NCBI RefSeq assembly: GCF_000003605.2
Contig: NW_003141328.1
Span: 126,588 to 149,883 of the forward strand
From: Saccoglossus kowalevskii
Taxonomy: Eukaryota > Hemichordata > Enteropneusta > Harrimaniidae
Direction of reading: 5' to 3'
DNA: 23,296 nt
Positions 3,901-23,296 of the stretch are shown one piece after another; positions within the stretch are counted from its first letter, which is position 1, and each line of letters starts with the position of its first letter. The notes under the pieces were generated by a model. That model was not told the DNA's origin. It searched no databases and saw nothing but the letters and a program-made list of their open reading frames with translations. Position numbers and translations under genes: made by a program.

Positions 3901-6900
3901 CCATGCCCGATATTTCAAGTAGATGAAATCTATAAATCCTCTACTGCTCAATACACATCAAGTTCTAAGCATCTTTTATCATATGATGCTATTAAAATAA
4001 TCAGAAGAAAACCATGCATAGAAGGAAATAGACTTTGTAAAAACTGCAAAGAAAAAGTAGTTGACAATGAAAATCATTATTTAAAGAATGTGATATCAAA
4101 TCAAAACAAAACAGGAAGAGAGAAGACTGAACAACTTTATAAAGATATGCAATTGTAATACTACATTGGCCATTTATTTAACAAATACAATATACAGAAT
4201 TATATAAATTAGAAACAAGGGGGTTACATTTCTGTAATAGTAATTTTCCTTTTAATGGTGACGCAAAATGCATTGTTTGTTTTTGTCTGTGTAACATATT
4301 TATATTTTATTTTTACTATACGTTCATCTAAGGTGTCACTTGTGGAGTGATAAAGTTATTATAATTCAGTTTCATTTTCCTGACTAAGGTTGTGATTAAT
4401 TAATTAATTAACTTTTAAGTGGTGAAGTCAATGTACATTGGGCTGACAAGCTGAGGTTTAATACCATTTGCATTTTTGTTCTATTAAAAGCACATCTGTA
4501 ATTGAAATGCCTATGAACCAACACATTGCATTTTATTGTATGCTGATCTATTAAAATATGATATAGGCGACATAAAAATTATAATAATCCACAGCACATG
4601 TCACTGGGGATTTTCTGAATTACTTGTTTTGTCACATTTTTGTAATACCTTGTAACATTTGAATATTTATTTGCAGGCTGCACTCCCAAAAGCGACCAGA
4701 TTAGATTTATCCTGTAATCAGCTCACCTATTTGCCTGTAAGTACCTGTCAATATTTATACAATACACAATATGATTTTAGCTATTTTGAATAGTTACTTA
4801 CGATCGCTGAATGTCAAAAAACAGTATATGCTCAGTTTTTCAATTTTTCCTTCTACCAAAATGTTAGGTTCTGGATGAAGATTTATTTTATGGCTTTTAA
4901 CTATGACTGACTATCATGATCTTGCATATTGTGCTCAAGATGCAAACCAAACATCTGCCACAAAAATCCAATGATTTGATTTTAAACTTGAATTTCTTTT
5001 TCTGTAGCTCAATGTCTAATTGCCAATCTTTCAGAGGGTAATTATCAAATGCCTATAGCACATTATTACCATAAGCATGGAATTACTTCTTAAAATTCTT
5101 TAATGTTTGTTGAATCCCACATTTTAATGCTACTGCAACACACTGAATTTCACACGTAACGCAGGATGTCACAGTGAACACAAAATTGTCTATTACAACT
5201 GTGAACTAGAATAATGTCTGAATTTATGCAAAAACCATTTTTAATTTTAGTGAAGAAATTTTGGCAGCCGCTGTCGTGATCTAGCCATATTTATATATAT
5301 AATATATCCATGAATTTTTTTATTTATGTGCTCTTCAGTTGTGAATGTGCTTCTAATAGGCTGACACTTCTTCTTTGACTTCTAAATTTGGATGTTTAAA
5401 ATTTGACTGATTGTCATATCCTTCATCTGACTGGGCTTTTGCTAACCCTTCACCAGTCGCCAATCGTGAACTATGTTATGAAATTTAATTACAACAAATG
5501 ATTGTAAAGACCACATGATTACAACTGTGAAAAGTGACAGCATGTAAGGCACCAGTTTAGTCAAATTAACCTGTATATAAAGACCACCTATCTAATGTGA
5601 CCAGTGACAGCATGTTTGGTCAAATCAACCTGTATATAAAGAACACCTGTCTAATGTGAACACTGACAGCATGTTTGGCACCAGTTTGATCAAATCAACC
5701 TGTATATAAAGACCACCTGTCTAATGTGAACAGTGACAGCATGTTAGGCACCAGTTTGATCAAATCAACCTGTATATAAAGACCACCTCTCTAATGTGAA
5801 CAGTGACAGCATGTTAGGCACCAGTTTGGTCAAATCAACCTGTATATAAAGACCACCTGTCTAATGTGAACAGTGACAGCATGTTAGGCACCAGTTTGAT
5901 CAAATCAACCTGTATATAAAGACCACCTGTCTAATGTGAACACTGACAGCATGTTTGGCACCAGTTTGATCAAATCAACCTGTATATAAAGACCACCTGT
6001 CTAATGTGAACAGTGACAGCATGTTAGGCACCAGTTTGATCAAATCAACCTGTATATAAAGACCACCTCTCTAATGTGACCAGTTATCTCCACCTTTAGT
6101 ACTGGTTATAAAACCAAAATGATCGCAGGATTAGTGTTTTAAACTTGTCTCCACACTGACATTTTAATTTAAACAAGACAAGCAAGTGTATAGTTATTTA
6201 TTGTTCAAATATCTATTGACTAATTGTTGGAAATTCTTATCATATAATTTTTGCTCACAAAATAATTAAATAACTTCTGTATAAACACTACCTGTCCATG
6301 AAGGATATTTAGCATATTGTATTTACTTACATGAATATAAAAATTATCTCACCTTGATCTTATCTGTCTAAACAGGCTGGTAATCAGTGAATAAAAACAA
6401 TACTGTGCCCGGTCTTGTGTCCTGTATTATTTTGGACAATAAACAAAATATCTATCCTGTAATCACTTTCATTGTAATTTCCCTTTCATTTTCAGGATGC
6501 ATTTGGTACATTAACACACCTTGTGAAAATAGATTTAAGTAAGAATGCTGTATCTGATCTACCACCCAGTATAGGAGGTCTGGTTAAATTACAGTATCTG
6601 GATCTTCTTGGAAATCAGTTGCAATCCCTTCCAGTTAGCTTTGCCAATTTAAGGAGTTTAAAATGGCTTGATTTAAAGAGCAATCCATTGAGTATAGAGC
6701 TACAGAAAGTTGCTGGAGATTGCTTAGATGACAGGCAATGCAAAGAATGTGCTAAACAGGTAAGGGAAGATTACCCAGTGTCAGTTATTATTATACTTTA
6801 TTTCAGACTCAGACATCGGAAACAGCATTATTTATAAAGAAGGCGTCTATAATTACGCCAAAAACTTGACCTTAGAAATAAGTCACTGTTTATACAATTA

Positions 6901-9900
6901 TCAATTATACTATTTTCACTCTGAAACAATCGCTGTTTAAAATTGTATAAAGATTTTCTATGAAGTGTTGAAAAATTGAAAATATTTCTTCTGACATAAT
7001 TACCGCTTGCACTGCTCGACCTCTCTAATTTAAAAACCAACCGAAGTACACCAACACCGAAGTGTTGTATGCTTTATGCAGAGCATGCAACTGCTTGTCA
7101 GTGTAATTCCTCCATACATTTAAGCAATAGTTACTATATAAAAATGAGCAAAAAAAAAAGAGTACATTTCACATGTTCCGAGCACTTCCCAAAATTCCTC
7201 AAAATAAGATTTGACCTGAGAATATACATTATTCATTAGCTCTGGCTACCATCTGTTTTACTTATTCATGAATTCTACACATGCTTACAGAGATGCATGT
7301 ATATGAACATTACATTGACTAACAAAGTCATCATAGAGGGCATACTATTGTGTATGTCTGTATTAAAAATCTTCTGTACTACCGCCTTGATTTTACAGGT
7401 GACAAGTTATATGAGGGCAGTGCAATCAGAACTTGAAAGACAAAAACAGAAACGATTGAATGAAGAAAAGGGTCAGTATAGCTTGGATACGAGTAAATTA
7501 ATTGTTAGATATTTATTGGTGTTTTAGTCAAAAGTCTGCTCTAAACTAGTCAATAGTTACTTGTGTTACAGTTTCTATGTTTTTCATATACAAAAAAAAA
7601 AGGCATAAAAGTGGTATGGCTCTAGAAGTCATTGTATCATTGCTTGCACGGAAAGATTGAAATAAAACGACTTGCATGTAATTTCCCCGTAGCAAGAGAA
7701 GCTGCAAAGGCAGCTGAACAAGATAGACAGCGAGAAATGAAAAAGAAACAGAAACAAGCAGAGAAGGAAAGAAAAAGAAGAGAATATGAAGCCAAACAAG
7801 CTGCCAAAAGACAAGAGCAATTGTTATTAGCTGAGCAGGAGAGGATAGTCAAGGAAGGTCTGTATAAAGTCGGGCATTCCAAACTCTCTGGAATGTTGCA
7901 TCTTTCCCATTTTCTAACAATAAATTCTCAGTTGTGTGATTATTATGTGTAAAGCTCAAAGTGTCAGTCATTGTGCCACATTATGTTCAATATGAGGTCT
8001 CATGCCACATGTATAATATATACAAAAAAACATTGATAACTATCAATTTGGCAGAAAGTTCCCAGAATTCCCATTCCCAGAATGGATTTTATGGAGAAAA
8101 TTAGTAGCAAGTTAAACAAAATACAAAGCAATGAGAATGGGGCATGCAAGGCAGAAAAATCTAATGAGGTTATTATGAGGATACCTCAAAGTATGCACAA
8201 AGACACTGTAGCGGGAGTATCGACTGATATGCGGCGGAGGTCAATGTGAGGGCATACTGTCTGAGTGCATACTTTGAGGTATCCTCGTAATAACCTTATT
8301 ATACATCTTTTCCTTCAAAGGATACATCATGGGAATGCCGAAATCCAAAATGTTTAGAACAGAATCAGCAAACTTCTTTGTGTGGAGTCTGGTCAAACCC
8401 TGGTGGCAGCCATGTTTGTTTTTAGTATTAGAGGATGCTTACACGCTTAATCATTCCATATTTGGAATTCTCATTTCCTTATATTTATTATTATTATTAT
8501 TTTATTTCCATTTCTCTAAAGAAATATACCCCACTAACCTGGGAGAACAGGTTACAATGCGAAAGTTACAGGCGTGACTTTAATCGCCTCAATAATATAA
8601 AGTATTATATATATATACACATACACACACATATACAACTCATCTATTGGAGAACTCACACTAACAAATGATATCTAATCTGAAAAGCTGTGTATACAAC
8701 TCCTGCAATACTTTGGATGATTTCATGGTTATCCTGAGAAAAAATATATGTAAGTTTACGGATAGGCGAAAGGAACTCGAATTGTGGTTCAATGCGGTTA
8801 TTTCGATCAAAAAGCGGTTTTCCAATATGGTTATATGCTGGACAAACTACCAGAAAATGAGTTTCATCTTCAACAGCATCTATACATATTTGGCAGGTTC
8901 TATTTTCCACTGGAGTTCCATAATATCTACCGGTCTCAATGTGTAACTTATGATTAGAGCACCGGAGTTTAGTTAAAGCTTGTCTGTACAGGGGAACACG
9001 AACGATATCCAAATAATTCTCGTAAAAAATATTTGTTTTAAATTGGCGAAATGTTCGTAACTTTTACTGTTTGGGGATCTACGAACATTGTCAAATAAAG
9101 CATCTTTCCAACTTTTGAAATAAAAATCTCTCTTTCTTTCCAAATAACAACATTGTTTCATCGGTAATTTGGGAGATAAACCTATTCTCCCAAACAGTAT
9201 GCATATTGTGTTTAATTAATAATTTCTTAATAGCTAAAGCAAAACATGGTTTTCCTATCTGTGCCATTTTTTCAGACTATCTATAGGCTTTGTAAACGAG
9301 TCGATTAGATGACATTTTCAGAATACGTTTCCAATATTTAATACGGATTAGATTTCTGCCAATACTAAGTGGATATCGTCCGAGTTCACCTATAACTGCA
9401 CTTATATGGTAGGATGAAAATACCCCATAAAATACCGCCAGATTACGGCACGCTGTAACTTATGCCGTTACGGTGACAGATGTATAATAATAAGAGTAAT
9501 GAAAAAGTTGGGAGGTGAAAACACTTGTTCAATGAAACAAATGACTGAGCATGTATGGAAAATATACACAGTAATTACATCATGAATGCCGGACATTATT
9601 GAAACAACATGAAAATCATGACAACACTTACATTGTAATGAATGTCTTTTTCTTTCATTATCCACAGAAATTAAAAAGCAAAATAGTTCACAACCTGTGA
9701 AATCAAAGCCAGACTCTTCAGGTATGTACCAAATTCAGTCTGCACTGGTGATACAGTTTTAGGTTTGATTTTCTATTCTAAGTCGGACCTTCATGGGGCA
9801 TCACAACCAGAATTTACAAAACAACTTCCAGCATAATGAAAATGAACAGAATGATTTTTTACCTCTGCTGCTTACTTAGCTGATCGACCAAAGCTGTTCA

Positions 9901-13939: not shown

Positions 13940-15409
13940 ACTCCCATGTGCTGAGAGTATTGGAGACACATTAAATATAATTCGAAATTACTTAGCTGAA
14001 AACTAATTATGCAAATCAGAAAATTAATATGACCAGATTTGAGTGTAAAACTAATGAGGTCTGCGCAATGTAACAGAAAATCTATGTTTCCAAGTTTAAT
14101 TGAAATGTGATTAGAACCAAAACATGAATTATTATGCTTATTAGGGAATTAATATGAACAGATTTTTACCCCAAACTAATTAGGTTTGTACATTGTCCTA
14201 GAGCATCTTTGTACTAAGTTTCATTGAAATGGAATAATTAGTACTTTAGATATCAGTGTGAAAGCTTAAAATTGGTTAATTATGCAAATTAGGTAATTAA
14301 TATGTACAGATTTTAACCCACAATTATTCAGGTCTGTCTATTGTCCTACAGCATCCATGTACATTCATTGATATGTGATGTATAGTACCTGAGATATCAG
14401 TGTGAAAGTTGGTTAATTAGACAAACTAGGTGATTAATATGCACAAATATTTACCGAAAATTAATTGGGTCTGCATAATTCTAGATTCATTGAAATGTGA
14501 TGATTAGTACTTTAGATATCAGTAGAAAAGCTAAAATTAATTATGCAAATTAGGTAATTAATATGCACAATTATTTACCCTAAAACTAATCAGGTCTCTG
14601 CATAGTCCTAAAGGATCTATGTACCAAGTTTCATTGAAATGCAATGATTAGTACTTGAGATACCTGTGGAAAAGCTGAAAATTAACTAATTATGCAAATT
14701 AGGTGATTAATATGCACAAATATTTATCGAAAACAATCTCTGCATAGTCCTCGAGTATGTAAGTACCAAGTTTCATTGAAATGTAATGCTCACTAATATC
14801 AAATGCTGAAAATTAATTAATTATGCAAATTAGGTAATTAATATGTACTGATATTACCATAAAAACTATCAGGTCTGTGCAGTGTCATATGACATCTATG
14901 TACCAAGTTTCATTGAAATGTCATGATCAGTACTTATATCAAATGCTGAAAATTAATTAATATGTACTGATATTACCATAAAAACTATCAGGTCTGTGCA
15001 GTGTCATATGACATCTATGTACCAAGTTTCATTGAAATGTGATAATTAGTACTTGAGATATCAGTGGAAAAAATGAAAATTGACTAATCATTATGCAAAT
15101 TAGGTAATTAGTATCTACGGATTATTACCAAAAACTAATCGAAACCTAGCATTAGTTCAGAGCATGTATGTACAAAGTTTCATCAAAATCCAATGAGTGG
15201 TTGTTTAGATATCAGTGGAACAATCATGGAACAGCTAAAAATCAGCTAATTATCATGCAAATTAGCTAATTAATATGCACAGATTTTTACCAAAAACTAA
15301 GTTTCATCAAAAACCGATGTATGGTTCTTGAGATAGCAGGAACAGTCGGACACACATACAGACACACTAACTGCAAAGACTCCCATTATGTGCTTCGCAC
15401 ATGGGAGTC
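13940..15409. mobile_element. Helitron-like non-autonomous element with tandem-repeat core
   Basis: The left end ACTCCCATGTGC (13940-13951) is the reverse complement of GCACATGGGAGT at the right end (15397-15408). The right end also forms its own hairpin at 15378-15409: GACTCCCA pairs with TGGGAGTC and TGTGC with GCACA around a TTC loop, with a 3-base bulge. Subterminal inverted repeats, a 3' hairpin and a minisatellite core match the design of Helentron-associated elements (HINE/DINE-type). No Rep/helicase is encoded. Insertion-site bases were not conclusive, so class assignment is inference. Confidence 0.6.
14000..15310. repeat. Imperfect tandem array, about ten units of roughly 120-150 bp
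   Basis: Each unit carries variants of AATTATGCAAATTAGGTAAT, TTAATATG(C/T)AC, then CAAGTTTCATTGAAATG and GAGATATCAGTG. Unit anchors lie near 14006, 14130, 14278, 14415, 14538, 14688, 14818, 14950, 15090 and 15245. Units around 14842 and 14960 are nearly identical (118-base period), a recent duplication. Many units contain ATGCAAAT next to TAATTA. Confidence 0.85.
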
Positions 15410-17119: not shown

Positions 17120-18568
17120 TCAGTCAACATCATCAAACCTATGTACGGTATCAACACTTGTTTCAGCTTCTGCCAGTCGTGACTCAGTTCCATCTAATTT
17201 TGCACTGCAATCTCCAGTGTCAGTTGAAGTACTGATATCAGTAGAATCTACTGCTATTGTGATAGAATCAATAATCTGATCATATAACTTCTCAGTATCA
17301 ATATTATTTACACTCAGTGATTCGTTATCACTTGTAACACAGACAGGTTTATCCGTTTTCACTCTCATATTGGAATTCATACCATACTCTTCTGATAATC
17401 CTTCCCCGAGCTGCAACGTCTTGTCATCACATTCCGTAGATAGTTCAACGTTGATATCTTGACTGATAGACTCCACGTTAACAGGTTGTTCAGATTTGTG
17501 CATCTCCTTCTCACTAATATTATCATTTGGCTGCAATGGGGCATCTGTGGGCGAATATGTGGGAGAGGTGGGACAGTATGAAGGAGAGGCGGGTGAATAT
17601 GAAGGAGAGGGGGGTGAATATGAAGGTGAGGTGGGCGAATATTTAGGAGAGGTGGCCGAATATTTAGGAGAGGTGGGCGAATAATTAGGCGAGGTGGGAC
17701 AGTAGTATTCTGGTGACCATGAGCCATCCATGCAGTAATCCAGTGAAGCACTATTGTCTCCTAACTTTGTTGCATCAATGTCAATACTTTTAAAAGAGAA
17801 AGTTGAAGATTTCTCTTCAGATGGTAAACTCATACCACTGCTGCTGCTCCTGATATCACAGACTGTGGGTGTTGCTTCTTTTTTAACACGAGTTGGTGAA
17901 TCTTCACATGATGGTGACATTTTCACTTCAGGCGCTTTCACATGACAAGCATCTTCCATTTGAGGTGAGAACTCTTTAGAGTTATTACTGCTACCAGACA
18001 TGCACGATACCGGGGGATCTGTAGGAAAGCTGAAACTCCCGCTGCCACCACAAGAAAATAACTTATATTGCATCAAACCATCCCTATCATGTGGTTGATA
18101 TGACAAGACATTAAAGGCAGATGTGAAACCCTTTGATGCTGGCGCTTTAGATGGGCTGTATTTAACTCTCGTGATTATACGTCTGACTGGTTTCTTCTTA
18201 ATTCTACTGCAGAAGACGGGCACTTCACAAGAGTTAAACCTGACTGCATCATCCATGTTGACTTCATTGTTTGGTAATGAATCCTGTTTAGCTTCACTGA
18301 TGAAGTTTGAAGAGCTTTCCTTTCTAGAGTCTACTGCAGTAAATGTAGAGAAAGCTGGTTTTGATGCATTATTTACAGTGTTCATAAATGAGACAGGTGA
18401 CTTCAGACAGGGAGATACATCTGACATGGCTACTGAAGATGTCAATACTGTACTCTTGCTGGAATTTGACACACATTGAGATTCAGATTGTTTATTTCCA
18501 AATACGCCAAATATTGAATTCATCTTTTCTGGTTTATTACCATTCTTGTAGTTAGCAAATCTTATCTC
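17120..18568 (-). CDS. GLEBS/CTD gene, last exon (482 residues)
   Basis: Starts after acceptor TTTTACAG with [12 protein letters not shown], the second half of GLEBS copy 2. [11 protein letters not shown] follows. The residue numbers here count from the internal Met at 18523. The stretch is rich in Ser, Thr and Pro, with several short Ser-Pro sites. A basic stretch [19 protein letters not shown] lies at about 108-126. FSF pieces occur at about 164 and 242. The heptads span 274-329, followed by an acidic, Ser/Thr-rich tail ending FDDVD. Most of the exon is predicted disordered by composition. The Met at 18523 is not the true start, because the frame continues upstream through the splice site. 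Confidence 0.92.
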
Positions 18569-21500
18569 CTGTAAAATTAAAAATATATGACATTTAGAAA
18601 AAAAATTGTGAAAATTGCTTAGTGATCTTTGCTAACAAGTGTGATACAGTGAGTTATACAGTCATAGTGCAAACACTGTGGTCAATAGAATGGTCATTCA
18701 TTAGACCAGCCAGTGCTGTGGTCAATAGAATGGTCATTCATTAGACCAGTCAGTGCTGTGGTCAATAGAATGGTCATTCATTAGACCAGTCAGTACCGTG
18801 GTCAATAGAATTGTCATTCATTAAACCAGTCAGTGCCGTGGTCAGTAGAATGGTCATTCATTAGACCAGTCAGTGCCGTGGTCAATAGAATGGTCATTCA
18901 TTAGACCAGTCAGTACCGTGGTCAATAGAATTGTCATTCATTAAACCAGTCAGTGCCGTGGTCAGTAGAATGGTCATTCATTAGACCAGTCAGTGCCGTG
19001 GTCAATAGAATGGTCATTCATTAGACCAGCCAGTGCTAAGGTCAAGAGAATGGTCACTCATTAGACCAGTCAGTGCTGTGGTCATTAGAATGGTCACTTG
19101 CTGGACCAGCCTGTGCTGTGGTCAATAGAATGGTCACTCAGACCAATCAGTGCTGTGGTCAATAGAATGATCACTCAGACCAGTCAGTGCTGTGGTCATT
19201 AGAATGGTCACTCGTTAGACCAGCCAGTGCTGAGGTCAATAGAATGGTCACTCATTAGACCTGCCAGTGCTGTGGTCAAGAGAATGGTCACTCATTAGAC
19301 CTGCCAGTGCTGTGGTCAAGAGAATGGTTACTCATTAGACCAGTCAGTGCTGTGGTCAATAGAATGGTCACTTGCTGGACCAGCCAGTGCTGTGGTCATT
19401 AGAATGGTCACTTGCTGGACCAGCCAGTGCTGTGGTCAATAGAATGGTCACTCAGACCAATCAGTGCTGTGGTCAATAGAATGATCACTCAGACCAATCA
19501 GTGCTGTGGTCAATAGAATGATCACTCAGACCAGTCAGTGCTGTGGTCATTAGAATGGTCACTCGTTAGACCAGCCAGTGCTATGGTCAATAGAATGGTC
19601 ACTCATTAGACCAGTCAGTGCTGTGGTCAATAGAATGGTCACTCATTAGACCAGTCAGTGCTGTGGTCAATAGAATGGTCACTCATTAGACCAGTCAGTG
19701 CGGTGGTCAATAGAATGGTCATTCATTAGACCAGCCAGTGCGGTGGTCATTAGAATGGTCACTCATTAGACCAGCCAGTGCGGTGGTCAATAGAATGGTC
19801 ACTCATTAGACCAGCCAGTGCGGTGGTCAATAGAATGGTCACTCATTAGACCAGTCAGTGCGGTTGTCAATAGAACGGTCATTCATTAGACCAGCCAGTG
19901 CGATGGTCATTAGAATGGTCACTCATTAGACCAGCCAGTGCGGTGGTCATTAGAATGGTCACTCATTAGACCAGTCAGTGCGGTGGTCAATAGAATGGTC
20001 ACTCATTAGACCAGTCAGTGCAGTGGTTTATAAAGCAACATTAACCCCTCTGTAGAATACAATACAATGTAAGAATCAAATGTAAATAGGGACTCGCGTG
20101 CAGGAAACACAAAGTATAATACAGTTTATACTTAACAAATGAACACTCAATACTACATTTAAAAGAGAAAGTGAGATAAAGAAAATTTCCTAAAGGTGAA
20201 AAGAAAGCTCTCAGACCCCATCCTTAATTTACTTTAAGCTTTTGAGTCTATTTGCATAGAGTGCTAGCAGCCATTGAACTGTACCAGCTTTCTGTTCATA
20301 CCTTCAGGATTTACACTACACGCCAATCTCTAAGAATAAATAAAGAGCAGAAAACTATATTATGATGGAAACACAGACAGTTCTTAAAATATACTGTGGA
20401 ATACTTTATTTTCGCTGGAATTAATTTTCGCTGAAAAGGTTTTTTGGGTGTTCTTTATGTAATTTATTTTCACTGACTTTTGATGAGTTGAATGTGAAAT
20501 ATAATAGGAAAAAAAAGTATATTCGCTGGATTTTATTTTCACGGAATCATCCCTTCAGGGAAAATAGCGAAAATAAATTCCAAGTGAAAATAAAGTATTC
20601 TACAGTAGTTGATAGGATTGAAGAGCTATTACTATTCACGACAACAGTACTGTTTATTGTGGAAACTGACATACACTTAAAAAGTTACACATTCTATATG
20701 ACAGGACACAACCATATTTGCCCAGATAGTCATAAAAGCTAAGTAACAAAGGTAACATGGAAAACCAGTGTGACGAAGACAATGGCAGGGTAATATGAAC
20801 TTACTTCTATACTTTTATCAAGGGACATACATTGAATACCACTGGTGACAGGTTTGAATGCAGATGGGGTTAGTACATCTAGGGACTGAAATCAATACAT
20901 ATACCATGATTTGAATATTAGTATGACTATTAGTCACATATATCATTAGTAGGGAAATGAGATGCAAATCAGTAGAGTCGTATATACCTGGTATTATGAA
21001 ATTAATTGATTTCAATGTATGTATGAGGCATGTGATTTCAATTGTATCTGTTGTAAATGAATCTCTTATGAACATTTTGATTGCATTCACCTCACCAACA
21101 GTGTAAATTCTAGAACTCCTTAACTTACTGGTTTATAGAACACAGCAAATATAGCCACCTAGAAAACAATAATTTACCAGTTTTTAGAACAGCAAATATG
21201 GCCATCTAGAAAACAGTAACTTACCGGTTTATAGGACACAGCAAATATAGCCCTTCTAGAAAACAATAACTTACCGGTATATCTTTTACTTTATCATTTG
21301 AATCGCTAATCTGCATAGGTGTGTTTACTGTAGTATTAAACAAGTCTGCAACTTTTCTGTTTTCCTTGTAATCTTCTAGCCTCAACTCCTACATGTGAAA
21401 TGGATTACAAATTTACTGGTAGTGTATAATAGAGTGTATCTAGAAATATCAAACTGTGTGTGTGATGAAAAACAATTCGTAATTTATAACATGCTTACCT

Positions 21501-23296
21501 CAAAACTAAGATGTTGATATTGTTCCATTGCCGAGATACACTGATGCTGCGTTTTTATATTCACTGAATAAATATCATCATTAGACTGTGGAGCCTACAA
21601 ACATAAACAATATACCATCAATGCAGTTACCTAAAACATTGGCATTTGTTCCCAAGATGGAAATACCGTATTTGCTCTAATTTAGATGCACAGCTCCAAT
21701 AGAAAAGCATTTAAACTAAAAATCACAAGTTCTCTATGATGTGGACCGATATTAAAGACACCGCATTGTATAGGGACATACATCAAAGATGAAAAATTAT
21801 CCAGAAATGGCTAAAAAAAAAAAAAAAAAAAAGGATATGAATCCACAGATTAAAGGTTCTGAATTTCCACGTCTATCCTCAATGAATTGCTGCCACATTA
21901 CACAACTCCTTGACCTATATCATAATCTATCAACAGGTACTAGATTCGATAATTTAAGGTAGGAGCCTACTCCTAATTTGTGAGAAAGTTGGTCATATAT
22001 GGCATAACAATGTTCATTGGTTTATTATATACAATCATAGAAATATTATCCCATGGCAATATCAATTAGCATTCATTCATGTGTTACAGTGCCGTTTTTT
22101 TCAAAAATTGCTATTTTTAGAACAAATCCATCGAACACAAAAGAAAAATGCATTTTTGACACTTTTTAAAACCCAGATTTTTAAAATAATTTTGTACAAC
22201 AAAAAGTACCCCATCAGTCACAAAATATGGCTTTTTCAGCTCACATCACCAGCCTACAATTTAAGATATGGCATAATATCTCTGCGATAGAAACCTATGA
22301 TAAAAGCATTATAAATACTGACAAAATGGCCACTATCCACTAAATTAACAATCATTTTCTCAAAATATAGGCTGGTGATCCCCAATATCCTTAAATTGCC
22401 CATGAGTAAATTGTGGGTATTATCATTTTTGAGTAGTCTTCTACCTGAAGACAAAGACTTACGTTAAATTTGACTTGTGGACTTTTAAATGGCTGGTATG
22501 GTACTTTAAATGAAAATGATGACCATGCAGGTTGTATTAATTTAGAACTCATAGTTTTAATACTTATGTCTGGCGATGTTTTTGTACTGACTGTCTGCGA
22601 CATACCACCGGTTTTACGAGCCGATTTAAATCGTTGCACTGATGGAGCCGAAGAGGTAACAGTTGAGTTAAAAATAAATGGTTTGCTCTCCGAATTTGTT
22701 TCTGAAAAAAAAAAGAACAGACACTTTCAATACACTGAGAAGCCATCTGGTTTCATTGAAAGACTTGTGTACATCAATGATATAGACAATTTTAATTCAA
22801 TGAGAAGCCATCTGGTTTCATTGAAAGACTTGTGTACATCAATGATATAGACAATTTTAATTCAATGAGAAGCCATCTGGTTTCTTTCAATGGCTTGATG
22901 TGAACCAATGAAATGGACAATTTTAATTAATACACTTACAAGCCACCTGGTTTCATTCGATGATTTAATGTTAGCCAATCAAAGAATCCATATGGTTTCA
23001 TTCAATGAAATGATGTGATTCAATGACATGAACAATCTTAACAACGAGAATCCATTTAGTTTCATTCAATGACTAGGGTGTATATTAATTTACTATTACG
23101 CCATGTTTCAATCTTCTAAGATCCTAAACTAATGAATTGGATGTCTACCAAGTTCACTGTAAATAGCCACAACTTGTGCTGTCACGTTCACATTGTGCTA
23201 ACGACAGCAGATTGTTTTCATGTGCAATCACATGGCTTGTAAATAGAGAATAATGATAGGCAGTAATATTTATACAAACCTGATTCAGTATTGATT
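17120..23296 (-). CDS. NUP98-type double-GLEBS protein with RNA polymerase II CTD-like heptads (5' end outside window)
   Basis: Read from high to low: 23280-23296 (partial, tentative), 22463-22701, 21499-21594, 21275-21388, 20805-20885 and 17120-18568. From 22701 down, the phases agree, all introns are GT-AG, and about 659 residues precede the TGA- or TAA-type stop at 17120; the tentative edge exon adds five. Order: a Ser/Thr-rich part with FxF-type pieces (KPFIFNS, SSFSFK); a GLEBS motif with [15 protein letters not shown], matching the RAE1-binding site of NUP98; a second divergent GLEBS ([15 protein letters not shown]); [11 protein letters not shown]; a basic stretch [14 protein letters not shown] (possible nuclear import signal); eight YSPTSPS-like heptads; and an acidic tail. 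NUP98's GLFG array, autoproteolytic domain and NUP96 are not seen here. RAE1 binding is inferred from the motif, and a nuclear or nuclear-pore site from the motif and basic patch. It could be a NUP98 paralogue. The start codon and any upstream FG repeats lie off the window. Confidence 0.88.
17537..17704 (-). repeat. Eight tandem heptads resembling the RNA polymerase II CTD
   Basis: Fifty-six residues with Tyr at every seventh position and consensus YSPTSPS. Two units have Cys at position 2, one has Ala and one has Pro at positions 3 and 4 respectively, and one has Ala at position 4. The seventh position is Asn, Lys, Lys, Ser, Ser, Ser or Thr, and the last unit degenerates to YSPTDAP. The 21-base DNA units are similar but not identical (Ser as TCG or TCA, Pro as CCC or CCT). 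This points to tandem expansion followed by divergence, with the amino-acid pattern kept. In polymerase II these residues are phosphorylated at Ser2, Ser5 and Ser7; the same Ser-Pro sites exist here. Confidence 0.95.
18671..20037. repeat. 40-bp minisatellite, about 34 units
   Basis: Unit on the plus strand: CAGTGCTGTGGTCAATAGAA then TGGTCATTCATTAGACCAGT, with some units shortened by loss of TTA. Each unit contains TGGTC(N8)GACCA, able to form a small hairpin, and repeated GGTCA half-sites. A 120-base block (three units with the marker CAGTACCGTGG) occurs twice near 18790-19030, and a block including the shortened units is repeated at about 19095-19215 and 19385-19580, showing higher-order duplications. 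Confidence 0.97.
20392..20607. mobile_element. Foldback (MITE-like) element, family A copy 2
   Basis: Left arm 20392-20432 (TACTGTGGAATACTTTATTT...) and right arm about 20566-20607 (...AAAGTATTCTACAGTA) are inverted repeats of about 41 bases with few mismatches. The element is 216 bp, has no transposase, and is inverted relative to the copy at 1797-2004. The 84-codon open frame over its right half is a by-product. Confidence 0.8.
20805..20885 (-). CDS. GLEBS/CTD gene, exon with first half of GLEBS copy 2
   Basis: Twenty-seven codons, phase 0 at both ends, from acceptor ATTTCAG to donor GTAAGT. It encodes [18 protein letters not shown] and [19 protein letters not shown] parallels QCISAMEQ...SFE of the first copy, minus four residues. 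The next exon begins EIRF, so the intron splits the Glu-Glu pair exactly as in copy 1. Confidence 0.82.
20886..21274 (-). other. GLEBS/CTD gene, intron with tandemly copied donor sites
   Basis: A 389-base intron. Its 5' part (plus coordinates 21121-21266) is a three-copy, roughly 50-base tandem repeat in which each unit again contains the donor-like context of the preceding exon. The minus-strand open frame at 20818-21090 spans exon and intron and is not a gene. Confidence 0.8.
21121..21283. repeat. 50-bp tandem repeat overlapping the exon 3' splice-donor context
   Basis: Units start at about 21121, 21170 and 21217, with the fourth start at 21267 being the genuine exon end. On the plus strand each begins TAA(C/T)TTAC(C/T)(G/A)GT and continues TTATAGAACACAGCAAATAT with small changes. 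On the minus strand each supplies a GGTAAGTTA-like or GGTAAATTA-like sequence. Confidence 0.85.
21275..21388 (-). CDS. GLEBS/CTD gene, exon with second half of GLEBS copy 1
   Basis: Thirty-eight codons, phase 0 to phase 0, from acceptor CATGTAG to donor GTAAGT. It starts [12 protein letters not shown], which is nearly identical to the NUP98 GLEBS sequence (ELRLEDYQANRK in human, from memory). It continues into a Thr/Asn/Asp-rich linker ([11 protein letters not shown]). Confidence 0.93.
21499..21594 (-). CDS. GLEBS/CTD gene, exon with first half of GLEBS copy 1
   Basis: Thirty-two codons, phase 0 to phase 0, acceptor GTTTGTAG, donor GTAAGC. It encodes [14 protein letters not shown] and ends [15 protein letters not shown]. 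ISAMxxYxHxSFE is the NUP98-type lead into the RAE1-binding helix. The intron to the next exon is only 110 bases. Confidence 0.93.
21595..22462 (-). other. GLEBS/CTD gene, 868-base intron
   Basis: Contains a run of 20 A at 21813-21832, a fragment resembling the 11776 element end near 21661-21700, and a family B repeat at 22198-22392. Open frames here (22081-22290, 22254-22454) lie across repeats and have no support. Confidence 0.8.
22198..22392 (-). repeat. Interspersed repeat, family B copy 2
   Basis: The minus strand matches 16081-16210 in order and spacing over several blocks (TCACCAGCCTA, GTGGATAGTG, GATATTATGCCATAT, GATGGGGTACTTTT). TCACCAGCCTA at 22246-22256 is repeated in reverse complement at 22368-22378, so this copy also has an internal inverted repeat. 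Confidence 0.65.
22463..22701 (-). CDS. GLEBS/CTD gene, exon upstream of GLEBS copy 1
   Basis: A 239-base exon entering in phase 1 after a long pyrimidine run and CAG, and leaving in phase 0 at donor GTAAGT. It encodes 79 complete codons rich in Ser/Thr/Lys ([15 protein letters not shown], then VQRFKSARK, then [17 protein letters not shown]). The aromatic FIF, FSF and PFK pieces recall degenerate FG-nucleoporin linkers. Fit comes from frame and splice signals rather than clear homology. Confidence 0.8.
22702..23279 (-). other. GLEBS/CTD gene, intron at the right side
   Basis: A presumed 578-base intron between the exon at 22701 and a tentative exon ending at 23280. Much of it is a decayed 65-bp tandem repeat (22736-23075). 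The 126-codon plus-strand open frame at 22470-22850 is antisense to the exon plus repeat. Confidence 0.6.
22736..23075. repeat. 65-bp tandem repeat, decaying to the right
   Basis: Units beginning TGAGAAGCCATCTGGTTTC at 22736, 22801 and 22866 have a period of exactly 65. The first two are nearly identical. Further diverged units (CCACCTGGTTTCATTCGATG near 22945, CATATGGTTTCATTCAATG near 22990, CATTTAGTTTCATTCAATG near 23053) follow. Confidence 0.9.
23280..23296 (-). CDS. Tentative partial exon of the GLEBS/CTD gene at the right edge
   Basis: The last 17 bases of the window, read on the minus strand, end in a donor-like CAG|GTTTGT. In the frame needed to join the next exon (phase 1) they read INTES and complete a Glu codon with the following AA. 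The fit of phase and donor supports the call, but 17 bases cannot prove it. Confidence 0.4.

Follow-up and report, generated by a model that had tools for sequence, protein, structure and literature searches.

LOC102807286 of the hemichordate Saccoglossus kowalevskii (962 amino acids) is, on balance, probably a TRIM-class protein that captures RAE1 through a long, probably disordered, substrate-directing tail, which carries a NUP98-type GLEBS motif and a second, partly decayed GLEBS-like core. The tail is encoded near one end of the window analysed here, a stretch of 23,296 nucleotides from contig NW_003141328.1 (positions 126,588 to 149,883). Directly established are the exon structure, the homology and paired glutamates of the first GLEBS, the intron position of the second core and the RING and B-box ligands of the NCBI protein. 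If the transcript is real, one gene of an invertebrate deuterostome connects the TRIM family directly with the RAE1 branch of mRNA export.

Five exons on the minus strand encode the tail. Exon A (22701-22463), with AG and GT borders, covers residues 305-383 of LOC102807286, a linker after the TRIM head whose 3' end, VKFN, supplies the first GLEBS residues. Two exons with GT-AG borders complete this motif: exon B (21594-21499; residues 384-415) encodes the first half of GLEBS 1 and ends in SFE, and exon C (21388-21275; residues 416-453) encodes the second half, with the core part at 21388-21353. The first half of the second GLEBS-like module lies in exon D (20885-20805; residues 454-480), which ends in SIE, while exon E (18568-17120; residues 481-962 plus the stop) completes the second core (18568-18524) and continues into a Ser-rich tail. 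GT donors and AG acceptors join exons A-E into a single frame that ends in a stop within the last exon, and all four junctions within the window are phase 0. Exon E remains open for 482 codons, an event with a chance of approximately 4e-14 given the base composition. A search of 5.8 billion proteins showed that the joined translation of 658 residues is 100% identical to the C-terminus of LOC102807286; given that it matches without any change, the splice model proposed from the letters alone is the same as that of NCBI. The single minus-strand frame through five GT-AG exons described in an earlier note on this DNA thus agrees with the borders, the frame and the database protein, as does its 482-residue exon. 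The picture of the protein given there holds for the exons and falls short at the N-terminal side, as the gene continues beyond the window and the missing part is a TRIM head in the NCBI record.

This head (residues 1-304, outside the window) comprises a RING, a B-box and a probable coiled coil. The RING is recognized by two Pfam models (PF13445, 32.7 bits, cut-off 25.2; PF00097, 28.4 bits, cut-off 21), with six other RING-type models scoring below their own cut-offs, and the B-box scores barely above its threshold (PF00643, 24.8 bits, cut-off 24.1). Both domains have complete ligand patterns, that of C3HC4 type in residues 7-54 and that of the B-box in residues 99-135; the intact RING pattern suggests that ligase activity has been kept. 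The best match in the PDB is TRIM3 (E 3e-13, residues 5-199), and ranking by E-value puts TRIM21 and TRIM2 with it in the top three. In a single-sequence structure model of low confidence (mean pLDDT 34; 53-67 over residues 141-260), helices are predicted within residues 132-260, the region of the possible antiparallel coiled coil. Together, these features indicate a TRIM-class layout and probably a ubiquitin ligase, here considered putative.

LOC102807286 extends past the edge of the window, where the contig of the assembly also ends (149,883 bases), and the head exons lie outside this contig. Residues 1-314 have 16 matches in the assembly at 25-47% identity, none of which is the gene's own TRIM exon; 15 of the 16 head matches elsewhere in the genome touch the RING. 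The join between the TRIM head and exon A rests on the NCBI gene model, and the predictor may have fused a TRIM gene with a separate gene containing the GLEBS and heptads. Tandem repeats preceding exon A (22719-22957) are a further point in favour of such a chimera. It is nevertheless unlikely. Exon A has a good acceptor. Its first two bases finish a codon that starts in an exon beyond the window, and a stop closes the frame a short way upstream; given this mid-codon beginning and upstream stop, exon A needs either an upstream exon or an internal Met start. Moreover, the NCBI record, which is placed on a longer contig of 175,867 bases, uses exactly exons A-E, and TRIM proteins ordinarily combine a RING/B-box head with a C-terminal region of another kind.

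The first GLEBS (residues 380-427) is of the NUP98 type, as the earlier note had stated. The Pfam family Nup98_GLEBS (PF21240; cut-off 27) scores 44.8 bits on the full protein and 50.5 bits on the 658-residue piece. When the first 362 residues of the tail were searched against the PDB at E-values up to 10, nine matches were returned, of which seven (E <1e-7) are all NUP98 chains, including one with the label Peptidase S59 domain-containing protein; two weak matches to unrelated proteins (E 0.027 and 0.55) make up the rest. Isolated NUP98 GLEBS chains (3mmy_B, 4owr_B, 7byf_B and 7vpg_B) match at E 2e-10 to 3e-10, and all four structures were solved with RAE1, three of them also with a viral ligand. 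Salt bridges between RAE1 R216/R172 and NUP98 E201/E202 are described as crucial and as conserved from yeast to humans in a paper on the yeast homologue (PMC3783196). Since residue 427 aligns to NUP98 residue 213 (chain 7r5j_U0), E415 and E416 of the sequence SFEELRLEDY fall on positions 201 and 202, so that both salt-bridge glutamates are kept; an intron separates the two. A different partner, BUB3, would place LOC102807286 in the spindle checkpoint, given that the GLEBS of BUB1 binds BUB3 in a complex that closely resembles that of RAE1 (PMC3779320). However, the seven strongest PDB matches are all NUP98, none of the nine is named BUB1, and the Pfam match is specifically to Nup98_GLEBS, which makes binding of BUB3 very improbable.

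Downstream of this motif lies a second GLEBS-like core that was overlooked in the earlier note, which described a single GLEBS corresponding to the first copy. Residues 478-492 are the best ungapped match to the GLEBS 1 core among 521 windows of the remaining tail, with a score of 38 compared to 11 for the next window and none of 3000 shuffles reaching 38. The same segment scores 39 against the human core (next window 13; 0 of 3000 shuffles). When gaps are allowed the resemblance is less striking, with 23 of 2000 and 115 of 2000 shuffles reaching the observed scores, and Pfam Nup98_GLEBS does not report the second core. It contains adjacent glutamates (E480/E481), and a phase-0 intron separates the glutamate pair in each of the two cores; chance would place one of two junctions on that codon with a probability of about 0.4%. 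From this shared phase-0 position, we read the second core as a partly decayed copy made by duplication of an exon pair. In this copy FAN stands in the position of LED (within LEDY) and the ISAMEQY part is missing, which makes its binding of RAE1 uncertain. The doubled GLEBS with its shared intron position illustrates a route, exon duplication, by which a module of this kind can spread.

The tail shows no excess of FG dipeptides, which number two outside the heptads against a shuffle mean of 0.93 (p 0.24), and the autoproteolytic domain (PF04096) has no match in LOC102807286 at E-values up to 1. A NUP98 paralogue is ruled out by the lack of FG excess, the missing autopeptidase domain and the TRIM head, and the same features leave the earlier designation of a NUP98-like protein unsupported. 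Four FxF motifs (mean 1.2, p 0.028) were considered as decayed FG repeats, a signal too weak to adopt. S/T-P dipeptides outside the heptads number 12, compared to approximately eight expected. A basic stretch (18161..18205, minus strand) reads as a putative nuclear localisation signal. The tail encoded by exon E is probably disordered, being unstructured in a low-confidence single-sequence model (mean pLDDT 34).

Exon E also contains a run of heptads resembling those of the RPB1 C-terminal domain (CTD; 17704-17537, minus strand), encoded by a 21-bp tandem repeat with an 84% match. The eight YSPTSPS-like heptads initially reported are seven full heptads and an eighth that is broken (YSPTDAP); one of the seven is exactly YSPTSPS, and the Pfam family for the Rpb1 repeat (PF05001) scores 18.2 bits on the 658-residue piece and 17.2 bits on the full protein, below its cut-off of 20.3. 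These heptads have been proposed to mimic the CTD, in which case CTD kinases would phosphorylate them and they would bring CTD readers to RAE1 or serve as bait for CTD binders, a role compatible with a TRIM protein that captures RAE1. The seven heptads share an invariant Y1, S5 and P6, with P3 varying once, and their pN/pS is 0.52, where the genome's own RPB1 CTD gives 0.35, in a small sample; both observations speak for such mimicry, as do similar heptads in non-polymerase proteins such as MATH proteins of four Mytilus species. The repeat on contig C3166 was rejected as a pN/pS control, an unfair one in that its units were chosen by amino acids. Against mimicry, there are seven heptads compared to 44 by pattern in the RPB1 CTD of S. 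kowalevskii, which lies on another contig, and the Pfam score is under the cut-off. Pfam finds no RPB1 core domain in LOC102807286. Nor is there kinship with RPB1 at the DNA level beyond the shared residues: the best identity between the heptad DNA and the RPB1 CTD is 63.3%, compared to a mean of 63.7% for synonymous shuffles (184 of 300 at or above the observed value). The heptad DNA being no closer than these shuffles, a recent copy of the RPB1 CTD is unlikely and is unsupported at the DNA level, whereas an old copy is still conceivable from the sequence.

Heptad matches also occur on four contigs besides those of RPB1 and the window. Two are look-alikes with a seven-residue period in stop-broken frames, YSVTSPT and Y[SL]xTSPS, at C3166:390000-393500 (L022) and C1354:260000-262000 (L033); they weigh against mimicry and indicate that CTD-like repeats of this genome need not derive from a polymerase gene. 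The pattern filter gave nothing for the heptad match on C1009 (L032). On C3165 (L031, 283001-292999), a listed open frame of 15,246 amino acids looks like a satellite read through a run of N and not like a gene. The heptads of LOC102807286 most likely stem from the capture of a coding minisatellite with a 21-bp unit, and their use is minor or unknown. CTD mimicry is a secondary possibility that we regard as doubtful, and a protein that would tie pore complexes to CTD readers is not the favoured model; what stands of the original proposal is the YSPTSPx run in the same gene model as the GLEBS, its resemblance to the RPB1 CTD being weak (few heptads, a score below the cut-off and no DNA kinship).

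The combination of TRIM, GLEBS and heptads looks new and is seen in one species, in searches too insensitive to call it unique. A search with the whole piece returned 260 proteins at E-values up to 10, dominated by RPB1; among the best 120, which were inspected, RING or GLEBS domains appear in LOC102807286 alone. The co-occurrence of GLEBS and YSPTSPS that the earlier note had suggested looking for in such a search was accordingly seen only in this protein among the 120 matches listed of 260. Residues 295-650 (4451 candidates) recovered LOC102807286 itself and one NUP98 at E 7.9, and residues 376-510 (53 candidates) recovered LOC102807286 alone. As these searches returned a single NUP98, the absence of TRIM-GLEBS relatives proves little. 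The Nup98_GLEBS profile run over the genome, also an insensitive search, gave seven matches, of which only that of exon B exceeds the cut-off; the six weaker ones have stops inside or nearby and look like chance. The species' own NUP98 was not found, the only match over the cut-off being LOC102807286, a result that is uninformative since 14 control genomes also yielded none in both family searches and the protein searches were uncontrolled. No GLEBS cores or heptads turned up when 14 further TRIM-like loci (L005-L007 and L010-L020; 12 distinct places, 3.1-3.7 kb each) were scanned by pattern. In the literature collection searched, no TRIM protein with a GLEBS appears among the titles and abstract openings listed; YSPTSPS and tripartite motif appeared together only in work on TRIM28 and splicing, and neither convergent CTD-like YSPTSPS repeats nor LOC102807286 gave any result.

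Non-polymerase proteins with heptads among the 120 matches listed include four Mytilus MATH proteins, one ankyrin-SOCS-box protein, one FHA protein and one without Pfam domains. This count leaves out four proteins for which no polymerase core is listed: P0017, P0061 and P0113, which on inspection resemble fragments of RPB1 or a chimeric gene model, and P0101, which is ambiguous. The MATH proteins, from four Mytilus species (P0045, P0063, P0075 and P0098), have a MATH domain followed by 16-21 heptads by pattern, with no polymerase core found by Pfam, and are variously named by their sources as UBP15/USP7, RPB1-like, uncharacterized and USP7. The ankyrin-SOCS-box protein (P0116) has 11 N-terminal CTD-like heptads and the FHA-domain protein (P0115) has 12; neither has a source name.

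The window contains other features besides this gene. The intron between exons D and E holds a 40-bp minisatellite of 34 copies (18676..20027), and further tandem repeats lie at 5526-6084 (70 bp, 8 copies), 14142-14473 (148 bp, 2.3 copies) and 14835-15054 (119 bp, 1.8 copies). On the plus strand lie an LRR exon (6478-6837; LRR_8, 49.7 bits) and a Lys/Glu-rich open stretch with no significant Pfam or PDB match (7626-7952), LRRC59-like in appearance. An open stretch on the minus strand (8656-9063) has a sub-threshold zf-RVT match and is probably a retrotransposon remnant.

With respect to mechanism, the coiled coil would dimerise LOC102807286, thereby presenting two to four GLEBS peptides, which would clamp RAE1 in competition with NUP98, and the RING would ubiquitinate RAE1 or a RAE1-bound partner. 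When GLEBS is overexpressed in HeLa cells, RAE1 becomes mislocalised and poly(A) RNA stays trapped in the nuclei (PMC3783196; PMC12666860). With human TRIM34, which co-precipitates RAE1, reporter expression falls and immune transcripts are held back in the nucleus (PMC13189347). On the basis of these overexpression effects and the TRIM34 precedent, a TRIM protein with a built-in GLEBS is expected to capture RAE1. The protein would then regulate mRNA export, plausibly during stress or antiviral responses by analogy with mammalian TRIM34. The role of RAE1 in this process is disputed, as neither mice nor Drosophila SL2 cells were reported to show an export defect after its depletion (PMC3783196).

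Alternatively, LOC102807286 would merely keep RAE1 from the pore. As a decoy without ubiquitin chemistry, the GLEBS tail would only compete with NUP98 and thereby reduce export of mRNA under stress. The decoy is a variant of the favoured explanation with overlapping odds, and taken separately it is less likely than not. It gains from the behaviour of overexpressed GLEBS in HeLa cells (PMC3783196) and from TRIM34, which apparently acts on RAE1-linked export without needing its E3 activity (PMC13189347); the intact RING ligand pattern, suggestive of a kept ligase, is the point against it. A quite improbable further function is that of viral bait, in which copies of the RAE1-NUP98 site and of the phosphorylated Pol II CTD would catch viral proteins aimed at export or transcription for the ubiquitin ligase in a TRIMCyp-like manner. 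This reading builds on reports in which VSV M, sarbecovirus ORF6 and herpesvirus ORF10 target the RAE1-NUP98 site and influenza polymerase binds the phosphorylated CTD (PMC11092357).

The proposed TRIM protein that captures RAE1 can be compared with several known systems. As in the GLEBS of NUP98 (PF21240; PDB 3MMY), the first motif spans VKFN to ENRK and includes both salt-bridge glutamates, but it stands behind a TRIM head and not among FG repeats, and a second GLEBS-like core comes after it. Heptads of the form YSPTSPx are shared with the RPB1 CTD, though LOC102807286 has far fewer of them, uses different codons and has no polymerase part. YSPTSPS-like repeats without polymerase domains also characterize the Mytilus MATH proteins, in which Pfam finds no GLEBS or RING. 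Among mammalian TRIM proteins, TRIM34 associates with RAE1 and influences mRNA export; the TRIM34 paper leaves open whether its contact with RAE1 is direct and includes GLEBS once, within a reference title, whereas the contact predicted for LOC102807286 would be built in (PMC13189347). A further parallel is TRIMCyp (TRIM5-cyclophilin A), in which a TRIM head acquired the binding module of a cellular protein as its targeting part; that module is a folded domain, whereas the one in LOC102807286 is a peptide motif in a probably disordered tail, with RAE1 as its putative target.
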